Positions 1 to 8,253 of a DNA stretch of 8,253 nucleotides are shown here, in pieces. This stretch comes from Thermococci archaeon. Its GTDB lineage: Archaea; Hadarchaeota; B88-G9. Under the pieces are notes generated by a model, which did not search any database, was not told the origin of the DNA, and worked only from the letters and a program-made list of their open reading frames with translations. Positions within the stretch are counted from its first letter, which is position 1, and the number at the start of each line of letters is the position of its first letter. The stretch spans positions 1-8,253 of the forward strand of contig QMUK01000056.1 in assembly GCA_003660555.1 (NCBI GenBank), written 5' to 3'. The position numbers and the translations under genes were made by a program.

Positions 1-814
1 ATCTAGAGGAATGAGATTATTTTACATAGATCCTTTCGCGGGAACTGGGCTCAATAGAGTCCCAAATGAGGATGTGATATTCGCAGGTTCTCCGTTTGTA
101 GCAATACACGGTACAAAACGCATGCTAGAAAAGTATGAGATGCGTAAATTCGATGAAATGATTTTTTGTGATTTAAAGTACGGAGATATTCTCGAAAAGA
201 GGATAAATTATCTCTCTAGAGCTGAAGACTTCTCTTGGGTGAAGGATACTGTCAAAATATACAAAGGAGATGCTAACGAAATAATATATGAAATTTCAGA
301 TGAAATCGAACAAGAAAAGATGAAAAACTATCTGGCCTTCGTAGATCCATATAAATGGGAGATAAGCTGGGATTCCCTGGAAAGATTGCTTGAGATTAAG
401 TACGGAGACCTAATGATAACACATCAGGCTAGACTAATAGCAAAGGAGATAGGGAGAATAGACTCCCTGAAAAATGCGCAGGAAACCGTTTCTGGATACT
501 TTGGAGAGAGCTTGGAAAAGATTCGTGAATTAAACTCAGAGGAGGCCGTAAAGGATTTTTACATTAGCAAGATCAAAAAATTTAAGAAATTCGTTTTAGA
601 CATAAAAATAAATGGTAAAGGGTTTTGTTACTACTTAATATTCGCTAGTAGGGAGAAGAGACCCAAATGGAGCGATATAGTTTATAGAATGAAGGAAATG
701 ATAGAGAACTACGATAGAGATTTAGTAAAAATAGCACTCGATAGACTCCTTGGAAGGCAAAGTTCCCTTCAAGAATTCAAAGAGGAAAGAAATAGAAGGC
801 TAACTGAATTTTAA
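1..814 (+). CDS. tcmP: TcmP-like three-Cys-motif partner protein, 5' end cut off
   Basis: Numbering is from the ATG at base 11. Visible motifs are YIDPFAGTG (5-13, a methyltransferase-type nucleotide loop), GSPFVAI (26-32), FCDL (52-55, acidic end of the second strand), KGDANE (85-90), LAFVDPYKWEISW (108-120), DLMITHQ (133-139) and YYLIFAS (207-213). This order matches the TcmP family, which is associated with three-Cys-motif (Gp37/Gp68, radical-SAM-like) proteins in phage and mobile contexts; its reaction is not established. The frame is open to the left edge. Family members usually have several dozen residues before the YID-FAG loop, and the GAGG at 6-9 lies only one base before the ATG, so I infer that the real start is outside the window. 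The gene converges with the helicase gene and their stops overlap by four bases. A T-run at 836-840 could help end transcription. Family call fairly sure; function unknown. Confidence 0.82.
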   Translation, partial: SRGMRLFYIDPFAGTGLNRVPNEDVIFAGSPFVAIHGTKRMLEKYEMRKFDEMIFCDLKYGDILEKRINYLSRAEDFSWVKDTVKIYKGDANEIIYEISDEIEQEKMKNYLAFVDPYKWEISWDSLERLLEIKYGDLMITHQARLIAKEIGRIDSLKNAQETVSGYFGESLEKIRELNSEEAVKDFYISKIKKFKKFVLDIKINGKGFCYYLIFASREKRPKWSDIVYRMKEMIENYDRDLVKIALDRLLGRQSSLQEFKEERNRRLTEF

Positions 815-3800
815 ATCTTCATCAGAGTCAGAGCCTTTTTAACCTGCTCCAATACCGTGAACTTCTCTTCCCTTATTTGAGAGGAATCAAATCTAAGTAC
901 TAGCCATCCGAGGAGTTGTAATTCGTTGGTTATTTTCCTATCCTCTTCGGCTATTTCCCCGGTATGATACTTCAAACCATCTATGAATATAGCTATTTTC
1001 CTTTCGGGATATGCAAAGTCTGCTCTAGCTATTTTGACTCCTTTCTCGTCTTCTATTATTACTTGCGGCTCTGGATCTGGGATCCCTTGAGATCTAACTA
1101 GCTCTAGGAACTCTCTCTCGAGTGGTGACTCCACGTTCCTGAGCACGTAGTCCTCCTCTGATTCTTTCCCCATCGCTACCTCTAAGAATTTCTTTATGAG
1201 TTTCTTGTCCAGATACTGATGATCTGCCTGATTATAGTAATTCTTTAAGCAATTATAGCAAGCTTCGTCACATTCGTGCCCATATAACACTTCATAAGCC
1301 TTTCTTATTATCTCTCTCATGTTTTGCGCTGCAGTTTCCAAATACCCTACTCCTCCGGGAACTTCCTCATAGAGAACTATCTCCTCAATGGTTTTCTTTC
1401 CAGATTCCAATCTCAGAGTCCTTACAAATCCTCTAACCTCATTGTACTCTGTTTCCAGAGTTATGTGTATTCCCAGAAGAATGGCATGAAGCAGGGTCTT
1501 GAGAAACTTCTTCCTTTCTTTCTCATCAGACTCTTCGATCTTTGGGACTATTACCAAGGTGTCAGCAATCTTCCTAGAAGCTAGATCTACTCTCACTAGA
1601 TCAGAAGAGGTTCCATCACATCCTCTATGTATTTCCTCCCATCCTTCATCTTTCTCCTTCCATCTTCCGCACTTCACGCATATCTGGAATTTCTCTCCTC
1701 CTCTTCCCATGTTCACGATCATCAACTTTGAATTTCTCCTGAACCTCATTTCCATGTTCTCTAGAGAATAATCCTTTCCTTTCTCTCCTTCCGTCTCTAG
1801 GTATTCCCTGATTACATAGGGTTTGTATTCTCTTCTCTCCTCCATCGAGGAGACTCTGTCTATCTTCCTAGAGTAATAGAAGATGGGTTCGACGTAGTTC
1901 CTCTTTGAGAGGGGGGATCCGCAATGGGGACATCTCACTTCGTAGACGTCCCTCGTGACGTAATCACATCCGCCATCGCAGACCTTGTAAGTGTTTTCTT
2001 CTCTATTTACTATGTCTAGCGCTTTTCTTATTTCTTTTAAATTCACTCCTATTGCTTGATACTTTTTCCTATCCACGTATATGTAATTTCCTGGTGCAAA
2101 TTCTCTTATAGCAATGTAATCGTCCCTTATCAGTGGCTCTTTCCTATCTGGTAGATAGAGCACGCTTTGCCTTCCAGGAAAAGCGTAACCAGGAAGGAAC
2201 CCGTGTTCTCTAAGAAAAGACAAAGTATATGCTATGTATTTATCTGTAAGCAATTCCTGTTTCCTCTCATTTAGTTTAGTTAGTTCTCTGGTTTCATCTC
2301 TAGTCAAATTCTTACCTTTAGATAACTTATCGACAATAGGTGCTAGCCCTCTCTCTATGTAATTTAAAGCCTCTATCAGTGGAGACAAAGCTTCCTCCAT
2401 TTCGTCAAAGAAGTTTTCTATTACCTCTTCAAGGTATTTTTTGGTAAGCCAAGCTATTCTTCCTCTCTCAATGTCATCTTTGAATACAGAGAATATTTCT
2501 TTTATTAGCTCTTCTTTTCTCATCCTAAGTTCTTCAATCATACTAATGTCTCTCTTCATTCTGTATTTCCAGATGCCGTTCTCCTGATATCTCTCTACCA
2601 TCTCTTCCAGCATAGTCGGTAATCTAGAGTTCATCTTCTCGAGAATTAGAGACCTCACGTGTCTCCTTATCACTCTCTCGTTATCCAACCTGAAAACCGG
2701 AGGAAATATCTCACCCGTTATCATTTCATTTGGTCTTTGGAAGAAATAGGAGTCATGTGGGTTTCCTCTAGCATAAGAGATTATCACAGCCATTCCTTCT
2801 CTTCTCCCAGCCCTTCCAGCTCTCTGTGCATAATTGGATGGCATTGGTGGTACGTTCCTCATGATCACAGAGACTAGCTGTCCTATATCTACTCCTAGCT
2901 CTAGGGTTGGAGTACAAACCAAGACGTTTCTATTCCCATTGGAGAACTCCTCCTCATATGTTTGCCTCACTTCTATAGGGACTTGGCTACTGTGTTCAGC
3001 CACCTTTATACCAATTGGTTCGTGTTTCGTGTAATGATAGGCATAGAAGTTCCCTCTCTCTATTTTCCATTCTTCTGGAGTTCCAGGGCATCTGTAAGTC
3101 ACACACTTCTTTAGCTTATACGGATAGGCCCTAGTACAGCTTTTACAGAACCACACCTCCTCGAAGGGAACTACTTCCATGGCCTCGGAGTTTACCTGAA
3201 GTCCTCTTGTGTTACCTATACTCACTTCCTTTAAGTATCCCTTCTCCTTCAGGAGAAGAACTACTTGCTCTATGAATCTGCCTGTTTCCGATCCACTTAT
3301 CCCGTGGAGTTTATGAACTACTGACTCAAGCACTGTCTTGACTGGTCCTCCTGAAGTCAGTGGATAAATTTGATGTTCTCTCAATGTTTCCCTCCTTTTA
3401 CCCATCGAGAAAACTGCTATCTTCCAGTTTCTTGGTAAGGAGATTCCCCAAGCCTCTAGAGTTCTTCTATCAGGCCTCCTAGAATAAAGTGGGTGATATA
3501 TTGCTCTCCTAAACCTCATTTCGTCTAAGAACACTCTAATTGTCTTTAGGAGATCTTCTTCCTCTATGTTATATGCTGAAAGTATCTCCTTGAATTTCTC
3601 TTCGTTTCTCAACTCTTCTAATCTCCCGTAATTTACTGTTAGTAATCCAAGTGCTTCCAAAGTCATTCTCAACCTTGGTGATCTTGAGAATTCCTCTAAA
3701 ACCAAGAATTGTATCTTGTCTATCTCTCTACTCTCCGCTTCTTTTGTTTTGGGCCTCTCGAATATCCCCTTACTCTCCCCTAGGGTCCAGACTTTCTCTC

Positions 3801-5754
3801 CTAGAGAGTTCATCTCTAATGCTCTTCCTTCCCTCTTTAATAAGTCGTATATTAGCTGCCTTATGGTGAACTGCATGTGTCTGTCTTCCATGTATCCGGC
3901 TTGATGGGCGGTGTCTTGCCTATTATCCGTGAAGATCAGAGTCTTCCTCTCACTGAAGTCCAAGTTGGAGAGCAAGGTAGTGGTTATTACCGAGATGTCA
4001 GAGGCTATTCCGCTCCTCACTAGAGTAACTACCTCTCTATTTCCGTATCTTCCTCCACAAGCGGGACATATGTTCAGCTTGTTATGTGAGACGTAGACCT
4101 CAACTGCCTCGTGATCACATGGTCTCCTAGAGGAGGTAGAGAATAGGGAACACTTTGGACAGAAGTATCCCTTGGATATCTTCCTTCTTCCGTCTTCCTC
4201 TCCATATACTTCTTTTATTTCGCTGGTGATGTGCATGGTGTTTTCATCTGAGTCGTAGTCGTCATTCGGAAGGAGAATACTCCGCCCATCTCCCAAGGAG
4301 TAAGTTCTAGTCTTGAGGAAGTCTTGACCACAGTTTCTACAAACCTCTAAAGGAAAGGTTATTGAACCACACTTAGGGCATCTAGTCTTCCCGTCATTGA
4401 ATATCTCTCCGCAAGATGGATTTGAACACCTAACTAAGCCTTGGAATCCTCTCAAGAAGACATGTACCCTTGGTCTGAACCTACTCCTGCCATCTCTCTT
4501 AGCGAATATACCGCATAGGAGATAGGCCTTTACCTCCCTCTCTAGATACTCCATTGGAGTTTCTCTTCTCTCCGGGACTTCTTCTCTTATAACTTCAGCT
4601 AATTCCCTTATCGTCTTTGCTCCTTCCAATAACCTAGTCTCTATTAGTGTAGCGATCTTATTTCTCTCTAGAACGGAATACGCCCACTCCTCTGGTTTGA
4701 CTCCTCCTCTGAACTCGCTTCCAGTCAGCTTCTCCAAGAGGGGTATCATGTCCTCTTCCAAGGTGACCTCAACGTCCAGATCTTCTTCCTCTATTCTCGG
4801 ATCCTCAGGCACTTCCTCGGCCCTTCCTACCGGAAAGTAATACTTCTCCTCAATTAGGAATTCTTCGTCGAATTCCTCCCCGAATAAATCCGTTGAAAAT
4901 TCCCTTAGTTTTCTTTTATCCTTATCGTACTTCGATTTCACAGTAGCACTAGTTCCTATACAAATTAGCTCTCCTCCGAGTTTCCCGACATGTCCTTTTA
5001 GTCTCCTTATTAGACAAGCGACTTCTGCTCCTAGGGCTCCCTTGTATGTGTGTATTTCGTCCAGTACCAAGAACTTGAGAGCTTTCTCTTTGAATATCTT
5101 CTGATCCTCCTTTCTCACCAAAAGGTATTCCAGCATGGAGTAATTTGTTATGAGTATATCTGGGGGGTCCTTTTGTATTTCTTCTCTAGTGGTTACTTCC
5201 TCATCTATCGCATCAATGGGTCTTTCGTCCATTTTCTCTGGAGTTCTAGACGTGTAGATGCCGAATGTTATCCCTGATCCCTTGAGGAGTCTCCTAAGTC
5301 TCTCGTATTGATCGTTCGCCAAAGCGTTCATTGGGTAAATCAGAAGGGCCTTTACTCCCCTCTTCCCCCTGTTTCTGTGGCAATACTCCACTATCGGGAT
5401 TAAGAAGGCCTCTGTCTTCCCACTTCCTGTTCCTGTGGCTATTATTGTGTTTTTTCCTGCCAATATTCTTCTTATTGCCCTTTCTTGATGATCGTAAAGC
5501 CTCTCTATACCATAACTCGAGAACATATCAACTACTTCCTTCGATATGAGCCCCTCGTCAGAGAGGTCTCTCAAGCTTTTACCTGGAACGTAATCTCTCT
5601 CTAGTGAGATGTATGGCCCTTTCCAGAGTAAATTCTCCTCTCTTATTGTTTTAAGGACTTTTTCTCTTAGATCCTGATCTAAAATTGGGAAAGTAGTAGT
5701 TTGATACATCTCGAACTCCTTCAGTATTTCTTCCGAGACCGAAAACGGTTTCAA
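811..5754 (-). CDS. Large DEAD/DEAH helicase with zinc clusters, DUF1998/MZB module and C-terminal Vsr-like nuclease
   Basis: A 1647-residue ATP-dependent helicase of the DruE/MrfA type. Helicase motifs: Q-motif YDHQ 87-90, Walker A ATGTGSGKT 106-114, DEIH 232-235, TSAT 268-271, FTDNRQD 608-614, CTPTLELGVDIG 947-958, QRAGRAGRR 977-985. Zinc-type pairs lie near 443/448/459/462, 472/475, 532/535, 563/566, 870/873, 1259/1263/1275/1278 and 1359/1362. The DUF1998/MZB end is VLYEEVPGGVGYL, then Cys 1495/1499/1502 and NQADH. Residues 1543-1630 look like a Vsr/DUF559 PD-(D/E)XK nuclease: SPLEREF, RADF (D1579), IDG (D1592), H1597, then GWLVLRF. Residues 1070-1170 are probably helical. The start is TTG: the first 15 residues fit the usual N-terminus of such helicases, and a TATA box lies about 30 bases upstream. 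A second possible start is ATG at 5709. Domain call sure; a role in anti-virus defence beside the methyltransferase is inferred. Confidence 0.92.
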   Translation of the reverse strand: MKPFSVSEEILKEFEMYQTTTFPILDQDLREKVLKTIREENLLWKGPYISLERDYVPGKSLRDLSDEGLISKEVVDMFSSYGIERLYDHQERAIRRILAGKNTIIATGTGSGKTEAFLIPIVEYCHRNRGKRGVKALLIYPMNALANDQYERLRRLLKGSGITFGIYTSRTPEKMDERPIDAIDEEVTTREEIQKDPPDILITNYSMLEYLLVRKEDQKIFKEKALKFLVLDEIHTYKGALGAEVACLIRRLKGHVGKLGGELICIGTSATVKSKYDKDKRKLREFSTDLFGEEFDEEFLIEEKYYFPVGRAEEVPEDPRIEEEDLDVEVTLEEDMIPLLEKLTGSEFRGGVKPEEWAYSVLERNKIATLIETRLLEGAKTIRELAEVIREEVPERRETPMEYLEREVKAYLLCGIFAKRDGRSRFRPRVHVFLRGFQGLVRCSNPSCGEIFNDGKTRCPKCGSITFPLEVCRNCGQDFLKTRTYSLGDGRSILLPNDDYDSDENTMHITSEIKEVYGEEDGRRKISKGYFCPKCSLFSTSSRRPCDHEAVEVYVSHNKLNICPACGGRYGNREVVTLVRSGIASDISVITTTLLSNLDFSERKTLIFTDNRQDTAHQAGYMEDRHMQFTIRQLIYDLLKREGRALEMNSLGEKVWTLGESKGIFERPKTKEAESREIDKIQFLVLEEFSRSPRLRMTLEALGLLTVNYGRLEELRNEEKFKEILSAYNIEEEDLLKTIRVFLDEMRFRRAIYHPLYSRRPDRRTLEAWGISLPRNWKIAVFSMGKRRETLREHQIYPLTSGGPVKTVLESVVHKLHGISGSETGRFIEQVVLLLKEKGYLKEVSIGNTRGLQVNSEAMEVVPFEEVWFCKSCTRAYPYKLKKCVTYRCPGTPEEWKIERGNFYAYHYTKHEPIGIKVAEHSSQVPIEVRQTYEEEFSNGNRNVLVCTPTLELGVDIGQLVSVIMRNVPPMPSNYAQRAGRAGRREGMAVIISYARGNPHDSYFFQRPNEMITGEIFPPVFRLDNERVIRRHVRSLILEKMNSRLPTMLEEMVERYQENGIWKYRMKRDISMIEELRMRKEELIKEIFSVFKDDIERGRIAWLTKKYLEEVIENFFDEMEEALSPLIEALNYIERGLAPIVDKLSKGKNLTRDETRELTKLNERKQELLTDKYIAYTLSFLREHGFLPGYAFPGRQSVLYLPDRKEPLIRDDYIAIREFAPGNYIYVDRKKYQAIGVNLKEIRKALDIVNREENTYKVCDGGCDYVTRDVYEVRCPHCGSPLSKRNYVEPIFYYSRKIDRVSSMEERREYKPYVIREYLETEGEKGKDYSLENMEMRFRRNSKLMIVNMGRGGEKFQICVKCGRWKEKDEGWEEIHRGCDGTSSDLVRVDLASRKIADTLVIVPKIEESDEKERKKFLKTLLHAILLGIHITLETEYNEVRGFVRTLRLESGKKTIEEIVLYEEVPGGVGYLETAAQNMREIIRKAYEVLYGHECDEACYNCLKNYYNQADHQYLDKKLIKKFLEVAMGKESEEDYVLRNVESPLEREFLELVRSQGIPDPEPQVIIEDEKGVKIARADFAYPERKIAIFIDGLKYHTGEIAEEDRKITNELQLLGWLVLRFDSSQIREEKFTVLEQVKKALTLMKI
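5716..5721 (-). promoter_or_regulatory. Internal AAGGAG before an alternative ATG start of the helicase
   Basis: AAGGAG on the minus strand lies six bases before an in-frame ATG at 5709-5707 (residue 16 of the TTG form). This is a good ribosome site, whereas the TTG at 5754 has none. Either both starts are used, or the match is chance within a Lys-Glu codon pair. The conserved-looking N-terminal residues argue for the TTG start. Confidence 0.3.
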
Positions 5755-5783
5755 GTAAGCCCCTGTTTGATTGGAGTTCTCCC

Positions 5784-5791
5784 CTTTTATA
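5784..5791 (-). promoter_or_regulatory. TATA box of the helicase gene
   Basis: The minus strand reads TATAAAAG, preceded by purine-rich GGAGGAAATAC that could serve as a BRE. Archaeal transcription normally starts about 25 bases downstream, here near 5760-5764. The TTG at 5754 would then have a leader of only a few bases, giving a nearly leaderless message. The position supports the TTG start. Confidence 0.6.
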
Positions 5792-5813
5792 GTATTTCCT
5801 CCACGAGGTAAGG

Positions 5814-5821
5814 TTTATTTT
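5814..5821 (+). promoter_or_regulatory. Probable TATA box of the toxin-antitoxin unit
   Basis: TTTATTTT lies 33 bases before the ATG of the small antitoxin gene. Initiation about 25 bases downstream would fall near 5840, just before the ribosome site at 5842. It is about 30 bases from the oppositely directed TATA box of the helicase, so the two promoters share one 99-base region. Confidence 0.45.
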
Positions 5822-5841
5822 CTATTAGAGACGAAGTAGTA

Positions 5842-5847
5842 GAGGTG
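5842..5847 (+). promoter_or_regulatory. Ribosome binding site GAGGTG of the antitoxin gene
   Basis: GAGGTG ends six bases before the ATG at 5854, a standard archaeal spacing. It is the main support for the start of this very short gene. Confidence 0.7.
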
Positions 5848-5853
5848 CCGAAA

Positions 5854-6018
5854 ATGGTTAAAGAGAAGGAAAGAAAAAAGATAGAACCAATATATGAAAA
5901 ACTCTCTCCTGGTGAAATCCTTCTCATATCTAAAGACGAAAATTGCGTAATCTACGCTGTAAACAAGGATGGAGAACTAAAGATAAAAAGAATTTGCCTA
6001 ACCGAAGAGGGGGATTGA
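5854..6018 (+). CDS. Small antitoxin candidate (54 residues) of a VapBC-type pair
   Basis: ATG with a good ribosome site opens 54 codons ending in TGA at 6016-6018. The protein starts MVKEKERKKIEPIYEKLSPG, continues through a probable strand pair (GEILLISKDENCVIYAV, then GELKIKRI) and ends EEGD. The basic N-terminus could touch DNA or RNA and the rest could bind the toxin; both points are guesses. It shows no obvious AbrB, ribbon-helix-helix or AF2212-like antitoxin pattern, so I cannot name its family. It is called an antitoxin because of its size, its position directly before a PIN-domain gene and the TGATG overlap with that gene, which implies translational coupling. Such antitoxins often repress their own promoter; here that region also carries the helicase promoter. 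Confidence 0.72.
   Translation: MVKEKERKKIEPIYEKLSPGEILLISKDENCVIYAVNKDGELKIKRICLTEEGD
6007..6013 (+). promoter_or_regulatory. Ribosome binding site of the PIN toxin gene
   Basis: GAGGGGG lies within the last codons of the antitoxin gene, with its GAGG core seven bases before the ATG at 6018. It selects this ATG over the in-frame ATG at 5943, which lies inside the antitoxin gene and has no comparable site. Confidence 0.7.
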
Positions 6019-6440
6019 TGCCTAAGAAGTGCTCCCTAGATACAGGCTTCATTACACTATATCTCACAGGGGAACTTCCAGAGAAATGGACGAGAGTTGC
6101 AAATGGTATCTCAAAAGGTAGGACAACCGGACTCGTTCCAGAGGGTGTGGTATCAGAGACGTATTACCAGTTGCTGAAGGATCATAGAAAAGAAGAGGTT
6201 GAGCGCATGATTATGAAGCTGAAAGGAATTCAGGGAATTAGATTAGTAGAAATAAACAACAGAATTGCAATTTTATCTGGGTATTACCACTTTAGATTCA
6301 GGGAATTTGGATTGTCCTTAGTGGATTGTTCCCTATTGGCAATAGGACATATGGAGAAGGCAGAAATATATACTACCGACGGTAATTTGAAATTAGCTGC
6401 TAAAAAGCTCAACATTCCATGTAATCACATAGTAATCTAG
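6018..6440 (+). CDS. vapC: PIN-domain ribonuclease toxin, VapC-like
   Basis: A 140-residue protein of typical VapC length. PIN nucleases use a cluster of acidic residues with metal to cut RNA. The expected acids are visible: D8 in SLDTG, E47 in VVSETYY, D103 in SLVDCSLLA and D121 in TTDGNL. VapC toxins generally block translation by cutting tRNA or rRNA; the target here is unknown. The start is the ATG in the TGATG overlap with the antitoxin gene; an upstream in-frame ATG would read through the antitoxin gene in another frame and is rejected. The gene converges with the DUF6236 gene, and the two TAG stops share the palindrome CTAG. A T-run at 6470-6474 may help termination. The catalytic residues look intact, so the toxin is probably active. 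Confidence 0.88.
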   Translation: MPKKCSLDTGFITLYLTGELPEKWTRVANGISKGRTTGLVPEGVVSETYYQLLKDHRKEEVERMIMKLKGIQGIRLVEINNRIAILSGYYHFRFREFGLSLVDCSLLAIGHMEKAEIYTTDGNLKLAAKKLNIPCNHIVI

Positions 6441-7450
6441 TTGTTCTTAGTTATTTCAACTATCCCATCTTTTTCTGCATAGTATAGGTAGGAAAGGGGC
6501 CTTTCTCTAATACCTCCCAAGTTCCTCTTAACTATGAACTTACTTATTAAGAGTGAACCACCGATGAGATTCGTTCCGAATTGCACGTAATCCCTCGACA
6601 ACAGGGATTGTGTTCCAGAAATGAGGAACTCCATACATCCAATTGCTAAACTTATTAAGTCTGACTTCATCCTCCTCTTTATCTCTAGGATTTCCCTTTC
6701 TATTCTCTCTTTGTGTCTCTCAACTGTCTCCTTCACTTCTTGGAAATTCTCAGCCAGAATTAATTCGTCCTGTATTTCGTCCATTATCTCCCTGAAGCGT
6801 AATAGTTCCTCCCTTCTCCTTCTCCTGAATCTAAGAATATCATCTATTCTCACATTCTCCCTGGGAACAGGCAGCACGTCCTTCAGATGAAGTTTGAGTG
6901 CTTTTTCTCCCTCCTTAGCCCCATAGGTCATGTTCCTGTATTCCCTCAGGTCAGTCCCAGTGACGGTCCATGTCTGAGACTCCATCGCAGAGTACTTGGC
7001 CAAGAGGGAAACGTAAACGAGGGTAGTTTCGTCCTCCAAGAGGAACCAATCTGGATGTTCTTCGTCTCTTTTTGCTAGTCCCCTCCTTTCTAAGAGTCGT
7101 AGCAATTCTAATGTGGCTTTTCCACTGTGTACTCTCCATGAAGGGGAAAGTATCCAATTAGATCTTATCCTGGATTTGAATTCACTAGAGTTCAATACTT
7201 CGAGTAGTTCTTCCTTCAAGTCTCTCCTCATTCTGATCTCTCTAGGATCAGTAGGCTTGAACACTCCTTCCTCCTGGAGAAAATACATCGATCCTATTTC
7301 CTCATCGTTTCCATATAGTATCTCTCTCATCTCTCGGTAGCTCAACTCCCTAGGTATTATGGAACTCACTTCATCGAAATAGAGTATTGCCCACTTGGTC
7401 CACTCTAGAGGAATTACTATCTTTGGGTAATAGAGTATTCTCCTAGTCGT
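6437..7450 (-). CDS. DUF6236-like protein with no ordinary start codon
   Basis: The frame begins just after a TAA (7453-7451) and gives TTRRILYYPKIVIP, then LEWTKWAILYFDEVSSIIP. This resembles the conserved opening of DUF6236 proteins (LYYP, a W, LYxD, xIxP). From the first codon at 7450 it is 337 residues, near the family's usual length as I recall it. The first ATG/GTG/TTG in frame is GTG at 7369, inside DEVSS, which would remove these 27 residues; I therefore think translation starts upstream, perhaps at ACG 7450. A charged, probably coiled-coil stretch (RFRRRRREELLRFREI and following) lies in the middle, and a more hydrophobic part (LISLAIGCMEFLISG) near the C-terminus. The function of the family is unknown. 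The gene follows the methyltransferase by 42 bases on the same strand, suggesting one operon. It could be non-functional through start loss, but the rest of the frame is intact. Confidence 0.7.
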   Translation of the reverse strand, partial: TTRRILYYPKIVIPLEWTKWAILYFDEVSSIIPRELSYREMREILYGNDEEIGSMYFLQEEGVFKPTDPREIRMRRDLKEELLEVLNSSEFKSRIRSNWILSPSWRVHSGKATLELLRLLERRGLAKRDEEHPDWFLLEDETTLVYVSLLAKYSAMESQTWTVTGTDLREYRNMTYGAKEGEKALKLHLKDVLPVPRENVRIDDILRFRRRRREELLRFREIMDEIQDELILAENFQEVKETVERHKERIEREILEIKRRMKSDLISLAIGCMEFLISGTQSLLSRDYVQFGTNLIGGSLLISKFIVKRNLGGIRERPLSYLYYAEKDGIVEITKNN

Positions 7451-7482
7451 TTAAACACCCAGATCCGTTCTCCTCTCTACAG

Positions 7483-7490
7483 CTTAAATA
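7483..7490 (-). promoter_or_regulatory. Possible TATA box before the DUF6236 gene
   Basis: The minus strand reads TATTTAAG just after the methyltransferase stop. Initiation 25 bases on would fall near 7460, shortly before an out-of-frame GTG (7457) and the ACG at 7450. The gap to the upstream gene is only 42 bases, so read-through from that gene is equally possible. Confidence 0.3.
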
Positions 7491-7492
7491 CC

Positions 7493-8253
7493 TTAGACTT
7501 TATACCTAGAGAGGTCGAAAACTTTAGGGTCCTTCCTTCTTTCTAGGTCTATTATTCTTCCTATCCTCTCGTATTCCTGCAGACACAATCTCTTAGTCCT
7601 GAATTCTCCGAAGAAGCTTTCTTCCTTTCTTTTTAGTACAGGGAAAGTCTCCAATATGTACGAGAATTCCTCCTTTGTTAAGCCATAGAGGTGAGCGACC
7701 AAAGCGTCGATTTCAGCCCTTAACTGGGCTCTATCCCCATCGTCTCTCTTTTCCCCGTTTATGTAAACCCAGCCGTAAACTCCGCACTCTGGCTTCCATT
7801 TCTCGCTTAAATTCTCCCAGCCCTTGACCTTTGAAGTTTTCGCTATTTCTCTCCACTCTGGTTTAAAGGTCTCCTCCCAGAGTTCTGCAAACTCTTCATC
7901 TATGCAAATCAGCCTTGCAGCTCTCGGAACTATTTGCTCAAAGAACCAGTTGCCTGAGGTGAGGCGTGGTATTGGGAGTTGGTAGAGGTAGAACATTGTC
8001 AAATTGGTTGTTACTTTTTGTCTGGTTACAAAATCTATAACATACGAGTTAAAAACGGCGTTAAAGAAAAAGTGCTCGAACGAGTCTTGTCCATTTATTG
8101 TTATACTATTCAAAGAATGTCCGCATCCTGGAGATTTAAGGGAAAATGCCGGCAGAATACAGGAAATCAAAGTCCTCTCATTTGTGTTGGATGCTATTGC
8201 TCTATAGGTAGATCTTGGAAATGTAGGGGCATTTTTATCAGCTAATCTTTTTA
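7493..8253 (-). CDS. N6-adenine DNA methyltransferase (Eco57I/PglX-like), C-terminal part
   Basis: The frame is open to the right edge, giving at least 252 residues; the TTG at 8170 is internal. The visible part has features of the target-recognition and C-terminal region of large adenine methyltransferases: YRAIASNTNERTLISCILP, then GHSLNS, FNSYVIDFVTRQKVTTN, LYQLPIPRL, RAEIDALVAHLYGL, FSYILETFPVLKR and FRTKRLCLQEYERI. Such enzymes occur in type IIG restriction enzymes, in BREX (PglX) and in DISARM (DrmMI). The SAM-binding and NPPY motifs would lie beyond the window, so activity and exact class cannot be judged. The gene precedes the DUF6236 gene by 42 bases on the same strand; the helicase-nuclease gene follows further on. 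I infer that it marks host DNA for the neighbouring effector. Confidence 0.85.
   Translation of the reverse strand, partial: KRLADKNAPTFPRSTYRAIASNTNERTLISCILPAFSLKSPGCGHSLNSITINGQDSFEHFFFNAVFNSYVIDFVTRQKVTTNLTMFYLYQLPIPRLTSGNWFFEQIVPRAARLICIDEEFAELWEETFKPEWREIAKTSKVKGWENLSEKWKPECGVYGWVYINGEKRDDGDRAQLRAEIDALVAHLYGLTKEEFSYILETFPVLKRKEESFFGEFRTKRLCLQEYERIGRIIDLERRKDPKVFDLSRYKV

Follow-up and report, generated by a model that had tools for sequence, protein, structure and literature searches.

Which defence system does an archaeal locus encode when a very large helicase carrying both a DUF1998 and a nuclease domain lies close to a methyltransferase gene, and is that system already described? The window analysed here, by which we mean the whole stretch of 8,253 bases, is one complete contig (C70) of a genome of 1.3 Mb that is in 150 contigs and 91% complete. 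An archaeal source agrees with the elongation factor genes of archaeal type in a genome of the same domain (L066), and 28 genomes of the phylum were in the set analysed. A sequence-only reading of the window had proposed a locus related to DISARM and Druantia, possibly an undescribed variant, composed of a methyltransferase, a DUF6236 protein and the helicase. Our data indicate with high confidence an archaeal ARMADA type I operon, armA–armB–armC, that is divergent in sequence and has two insertions between armB and armC: an antisense PIN pair and a DUF6236 gene.

ARMADA was defined in a preprint study of the YprA helicase family and consists of ArmA, a BrxHII/RapA-like helicase, ArmB, a PglX-like methyltransferase, and ArmC (Bell et al. 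2025, PMC12458937). In type I, ArmC fuses YprA helicase, OB and DUF1998 parts and bears a Vsr nuclease predicted to be active, and the type is found in a variety of archaea, many of which have a helicase–methylase pair ahead of the YprA gene (PMC12458937). Further criteria for a type I helicase are a BrxA-like insert that follows RecA1 and a helical finger that separates RecA2 from the OB fold. Type II is reported to be absent from archaea; in E. coli it gives direct, non-abortive antiphage protection, which is lost upon mutating the Walker motifs of ArmA or ArmC or the NPPW motif of ArmB (PMC12458937).

Gene content of the window

The three minus-strand genes that had been named are present as open reading frames (Table 1). 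The earlier inventory was correct for these, but it overlooked two features of the plus strand, the PIN pair (5854-6440) and a TcmP gene. The product of the latter matches TIGR04474 above the cut-off (E 8e-24) and the gene adjoins that of the helicase. TcmP is a defence-island neighbour and lies outside the operon.

Table 1. Features of the window and of the contig carrying the remainder of the operon
Feature	Position	Strand	Description
TcmP	2-814	+	Three-Cys-motif partner protein; N-terminus cut by contig start
armC	811-5754	-	YprA-family SF2 helicase, 1647 aa
armC, C-terminal Vsr-like nuclease	about 811-1107	-	
armC, MZB/DUF1998	about 1246-1491	-	
54-aa ORF	5854-6018	+	Probable antitoxin; antisense to operon
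PIN-domain (VapC-like) gene	6018-6440	+	Toxin candidate, 140 aa; antisense to operon
DUF6236-family gene	6437-7369 as listed; 6437-7447 with conserved N-terminus	-	310 aa as listed; 336 residues with conserved N-terminus
armB, 3' part only	7493-8251	-	252 C-terminal residues; open at contig end
armA	C72: 2604-5489		SNF2/RapA-like BrxHII helicase; DrmD 2e-145, BrxHII 4e-134
armB, N-terminal part	C72: from 5496 to contig end 8165		890 residues

armB is split between two contigs and armA lies on the second

The methyltransferase belongs to the PglX-like family, as had been claimed, and is a DrmMI-like N6-adenine enzyme, but the window does not hold the whole gene: its catalytic part lies on contig C72. 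The 252-residue piece in the window gave no Pfam methyltransferase match. By tblastn it matches the ArmB C-termini in 10 ARMADA-type loci (best E 8e-23), which were all the ARMADA-type loci with an ArmB collected at that stage. When the source genome was searched with Natrinema ArmA and Allomeiothermus ArmB, both were found on C72, where armA ends 6 bases before armB and the ArmB piece carries the SAM motif LDPAMGSGAF and the NPPW motif. No ArmB match turned up in the genome beyond this piece and the one in the window, both at contig ends, and the two are complementary: against a 1338-residue homologue (L037) the C72 piece extends to residue 878 and the window piece begins at residue 1072. Since the two contigs share no bases and about 180 ArmB residues are unassembled, we infer their adjacency.

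ArmA and ArmB are closest to haloarchaeal and Thermus-group ARMADA type I proteins, and those loci share the order A-B-C. All three core genes are accounted for in the genome, each with its best match in ARMADA type I. Because the reconstructed order armA–armB–armC is the composition and order reported for archaeal ARMADA type I, the locus is best regarded as a member of a described class. This supports the earlier view that methyltransferase and helicase belong together at an archaeal locus of the DISARM/Druantia-related kind. The idea of an undescribed variant is not supported, since ARMADA type I as published already combines such a fused helicase with a methyltransferase of PglX type and a BrxHII-like helicase (PMC12458937). 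With this assignment a small archaeal phylum gains an ARMADA type I operon that branches deeply. Another archaeal genome (G274) has a compact, complete ARMADA type I operon of order A-B-C (L063, 1987-14152, plus strand).

The source genome encodes a second BrxHII/DrmD-like helicase of 858 aa, open at the contig end, at 686-3259 (plus strand) of the 3.3-kb contig C130 (L081). It was set aside as an armA candidate because this contig carries no ArmC or ArmB, and no second armC to go with it was found in the genome.

Upstream of armA and divergent to it, C72 carries an OLD-like AAA ATPase and DUF3226/TOPRIM pair together with an EVE-domain protein (L086, 268-2442, minus strand); the best PADLOC match of the ATPase is AbiLi (E 9e-38). 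Because of these genes, and of TcmP at the end of the window, the operon likely sits in a defence island.

A DUF6236 gene and a PIN pair lie between armB and armC

The DUF6236 identity of the middle gene was borne out. Its protein matches PF19749 (E 1.4e-9 to 3e-9) over residues 158-250 only, as well as phrog_23128 (E 4e-11), and in a four-sequence comparison a full-length homologue was found in a Bacillota genome (L092; 30% over 338 aa, E 1e-38). The listed GTG start at 7369 omits about 26 conserved N-terminal residues (ILYYPKIVIP…), and the frame is open to 7447. There is no in-frame ATG, GTG or TTG upstream of the conserved N-terminus, and the open frame begins with ACG directly behind a stop codon. 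The gene may thus have an unusual start, a lesion or a sequencing error, or yield a shortened product. A structure prediction made without relatives was uninformative (mean pLDDT 37), a comparison of the protein with the PDB gave no match, and no mention of DUF6236 was found in the literature searched.

A search of archaeal genomes for the three-gene neighbourhood had been suggested together with the sequence-only reading; we found DUF6236 above the cut-off in the source genome only, 1 of 394 archaeal genomes. Among Bacillota it was above the cut-off in 3 of 398 genomes. There was no match in the 42 genomes and records behind the ARMADA and related loci, ARMADA plasmids included, a search in which no positive control matched either. 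Viral contigs scanned with the protein and with a three-row DUF6236 alignment gave no match, nor did tblastn of the window protein against plasmids and phages up to E 5. A weak match in the archaeal genome G317 (L079) lies in a frame with internal stops and was judged a chance coiled-coil match. Those relatives in Bacillota whose surroundings were readable have as neighbours hsdM/hsdS (L092) or GmrSD, a UvrD-type helicase and DUF5131 (L093), and a relative in a plasmid stretch (L105) lies near an AIPR protein, an adenine methylase and a putative restriction endonuclease. DUF6236 thereby gains a first context, that of a rare family beside restriction and other defence genes.

The 140-aa protein encoded antisense to the operon matches PF01850 with an E value of 6e-4, and its gene converges on that of DUF6236 with a 4-base overlap. 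The 54-aa ORF and the PIN gene share bases at the stop of the former and the start of the latter (TGATG); the putative antitoxin encoded by the ORF has no Pfam match. Because the PIN score is just under the curated Pfam cut-off, we read 5854–6440 as a probable, not a certain, type II toxin–antitoxin module with a PIN toxin.

Similar genes recur in ARMADA type I. In the locus of Thermus SNM1-7 a PIN-type toxin is antisense in the same armB/armC slot as in the window, and PIN-type toxin genes lie between core genes in Pseudanabaena ABRG5-3, Euhalothece (two), P. galeata, Dolichospermum and Acidithiobacillus. The embedded pairs occur in both orientations, in either the armA/armB or the armB/armC slot. 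Such a pair lies at 10461-11608 (minus strand) of L039, and others are in L077, L040, L097, L099 and L100. Counted by hand from the annotation tables of plasmid ARMADA I loci, with the window excluded, PIN genes were 7 of 38 interior extra genes versus 3 of 230 flanking genes (Fisher one-sided p 6e-5); the count covers few lineages, many of them cyanobacteria, the loci counted also gave rise to the hypothesis, and operon-interrupting genes may be a biased class. The recurrence of PIN pairs in ARMADA I operons is a testable pattern, and it goes unmentioned in the available part of the describing paper (PMC12458937).

It is conceivable, and in our judgement unlikely, that ARMADA I recurrently takes up PIN toxin–antitoxin pairs as a functional guard and that this lineage recruited DUF6236 as a working accessory. 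Also unlikely is an ARMADA sub-variant in which DUF6236 serves as a functional fourth component and to which the PIN pair also belongs. The recurrence of PIN toxins inside ARMADA I operons would fit such a variant, as would the position of DUF6236 on the armB/armC strand with its conserved N-terminus about 46 bases past the armB stop. However, the family is missing from the ARMADA records searched and rare in archaea, its Bacillota relatives adjoin hsdM/hsdS or GmrSD and DUF5131 and not ARMADA, and none of the canonical start codons precedes the conserved N-terminus of the gene. The sequence-only reading had counted DUF6236 as part of the system; our results, from a small sample, instead point to defence-island cargo inserted in the operon and not an ARMADA subunit.

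The large helicase groups with ARMADA type I

One protein of 1647 residues does carry the helicase, DUF1998 and nuclease parts, as the Pfam domains bear out: DEAD (5e-29), Helicase_C (3e-15), MZB (DUF1998; 2e-12) and, in the C-terminal nuclease, DUF559 (E 5e-6), with MTES_1575 scoring under the cut-off. The helicase motifs DEIH, SAT and QRAGRAGR are kept. The Vsr-like residues SPLERE, ADF, IDGLKYH and EEDR align with those of ARMADA I relatives, and the acidic and His residues are retained.

In helicase trees of 31, 24 and 16 sequences ArmC groups with ARMADA I in all three (SH-aLRT 96 with 31 rows and 97 with 16 rows). In the 24-row tree it is sister to 12 ARMADA I helicases (UFBoot 96, SH-aLRT 98). 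The 31-row tree pairs it with a long-branched Pseudanabaena helicase (L040), a pairing that may be false. A tree with Druantia and DISARM relatives had been proposed for this helicase; ours include Druantia III and were built without Druantia I/II, BRIGADE, TALON or DrmA sequences, and among the sequences sampled ArmC falls with ARMADA I. It shares about 30% identity with the closest ARMADA I helicases and falls outside nearly all of those sampled, so we regard it as a divergent member; because it is a stem branch, the strict wording is ARMADA I-like. Scanning genome contigs with the helicase alone gave mostly uninformative matches to Bacteroidota SF2 proteins, except for L011 and L012, and no match was found when viral contigs were scanned.

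It is very unlikely that the locus is a Druantia-like system in which a DruE helicase has DUF6236 and the methyltransferase as partners, even though DruE1 (585 bits) and DruE3 are the best PADLOC matches of ArmC and high BLAST scores were obtained with some archaeal helicases of the Druantia III grouping. The PADLOC models date from 2023, earlier than the description of ARMADA. Moreover, ArmC falls with ARMADA I in the tree, and trees constrained to join it to Druantia III or to ARMADA II were disfavoured by the AU test (p 0.011 and p 0.015, respectively). The genome also has armA and armB, and PADLOC matched no Druantia partner among the window proteins or, among the matches listed, the C72 proteins. 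A class 1 DISARM (DrmD-DrmMI-DrmA-DrmB) with drmA and drmB fused is very unlikely as well: the ArmA and ArmB pieces do score best to the DrmD and DrmMI models, but these are the two genes, of ArmA and ArmB type, that ARMADA is itself described as sharing with DISARM (PMC12458937), and ArmC scores only 85 bits to DrmA versus 585 to DruE, carries a C-terminal Vsr nuclease and has no separate drmB beside it in the window. Other Druantia or DISARM look-alikes flagged by older models may likewise be ARMADA.

Among the archaeal helicases of the Druantia III-like group we observed two-gene loci in which a protein of 704-730 aa directly precedes the YprA helicase (L061, 12329-19334; L060, 4869-11778, plus strand). 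The L061 protein was tested and has no PADLOC match. In L064 the same position is taken by a 1446-aa protein without Pfam or PADLOC match.

Proposed mechanism

By analogy with the protein families and with type II, an ARMADA type I operon of this kind may act as follows. ArmB would methylate adenines, marking self DNA and/or helping target recognition. ArmA and ArmC would move along incoming DNA that lacks the mark, and ArmC would cut it with its Vsr domain, such that virus replication stops and the cell survives. The PIN pair is most likely an addiction module directed against cells that lose the operon, and DUF6236 is most likely separate defence cargo.

Comparison with known systems

Class 1 DISARM resembles the locus in having a DrmD-like helicase and a DrmMI-like methyltransferase. 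It differs in that DrmA and DrmB are separate, whereas here helicase, DUF1998 and nuclease are in one protein, and its PLD nuclease DrmC is absent from the window. Druantia shares a large YprA-family helicase with DUF1998; however, the window helicase is outside the Druantia III group and the window has no Druantia partner genes.

ARMADA type II has homologues of ArmA, ArmB and ArmC in the same order. In contrast to the 1647-aa helicase of the window, its helicases are 2084-2133 aa in the loci examined and form a separate clade, and they are followed by ArmD, a GajB-like helicase with a RelE domain, which was not seen at the window locus. The closest resemblance is to ARMADA type I, with which the locus shares the BrxHII-like helicase, the PglX-like methyltransferase, the fused YprA-DUF1998-Vsr helicase and the archaeal order A-B-C. 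It is set apart from the type I loci by a helicase that forms a deep branch at about 30% identity and by what separates armB from armC, namely the antisense PIN pair and the DUF6236 gene.
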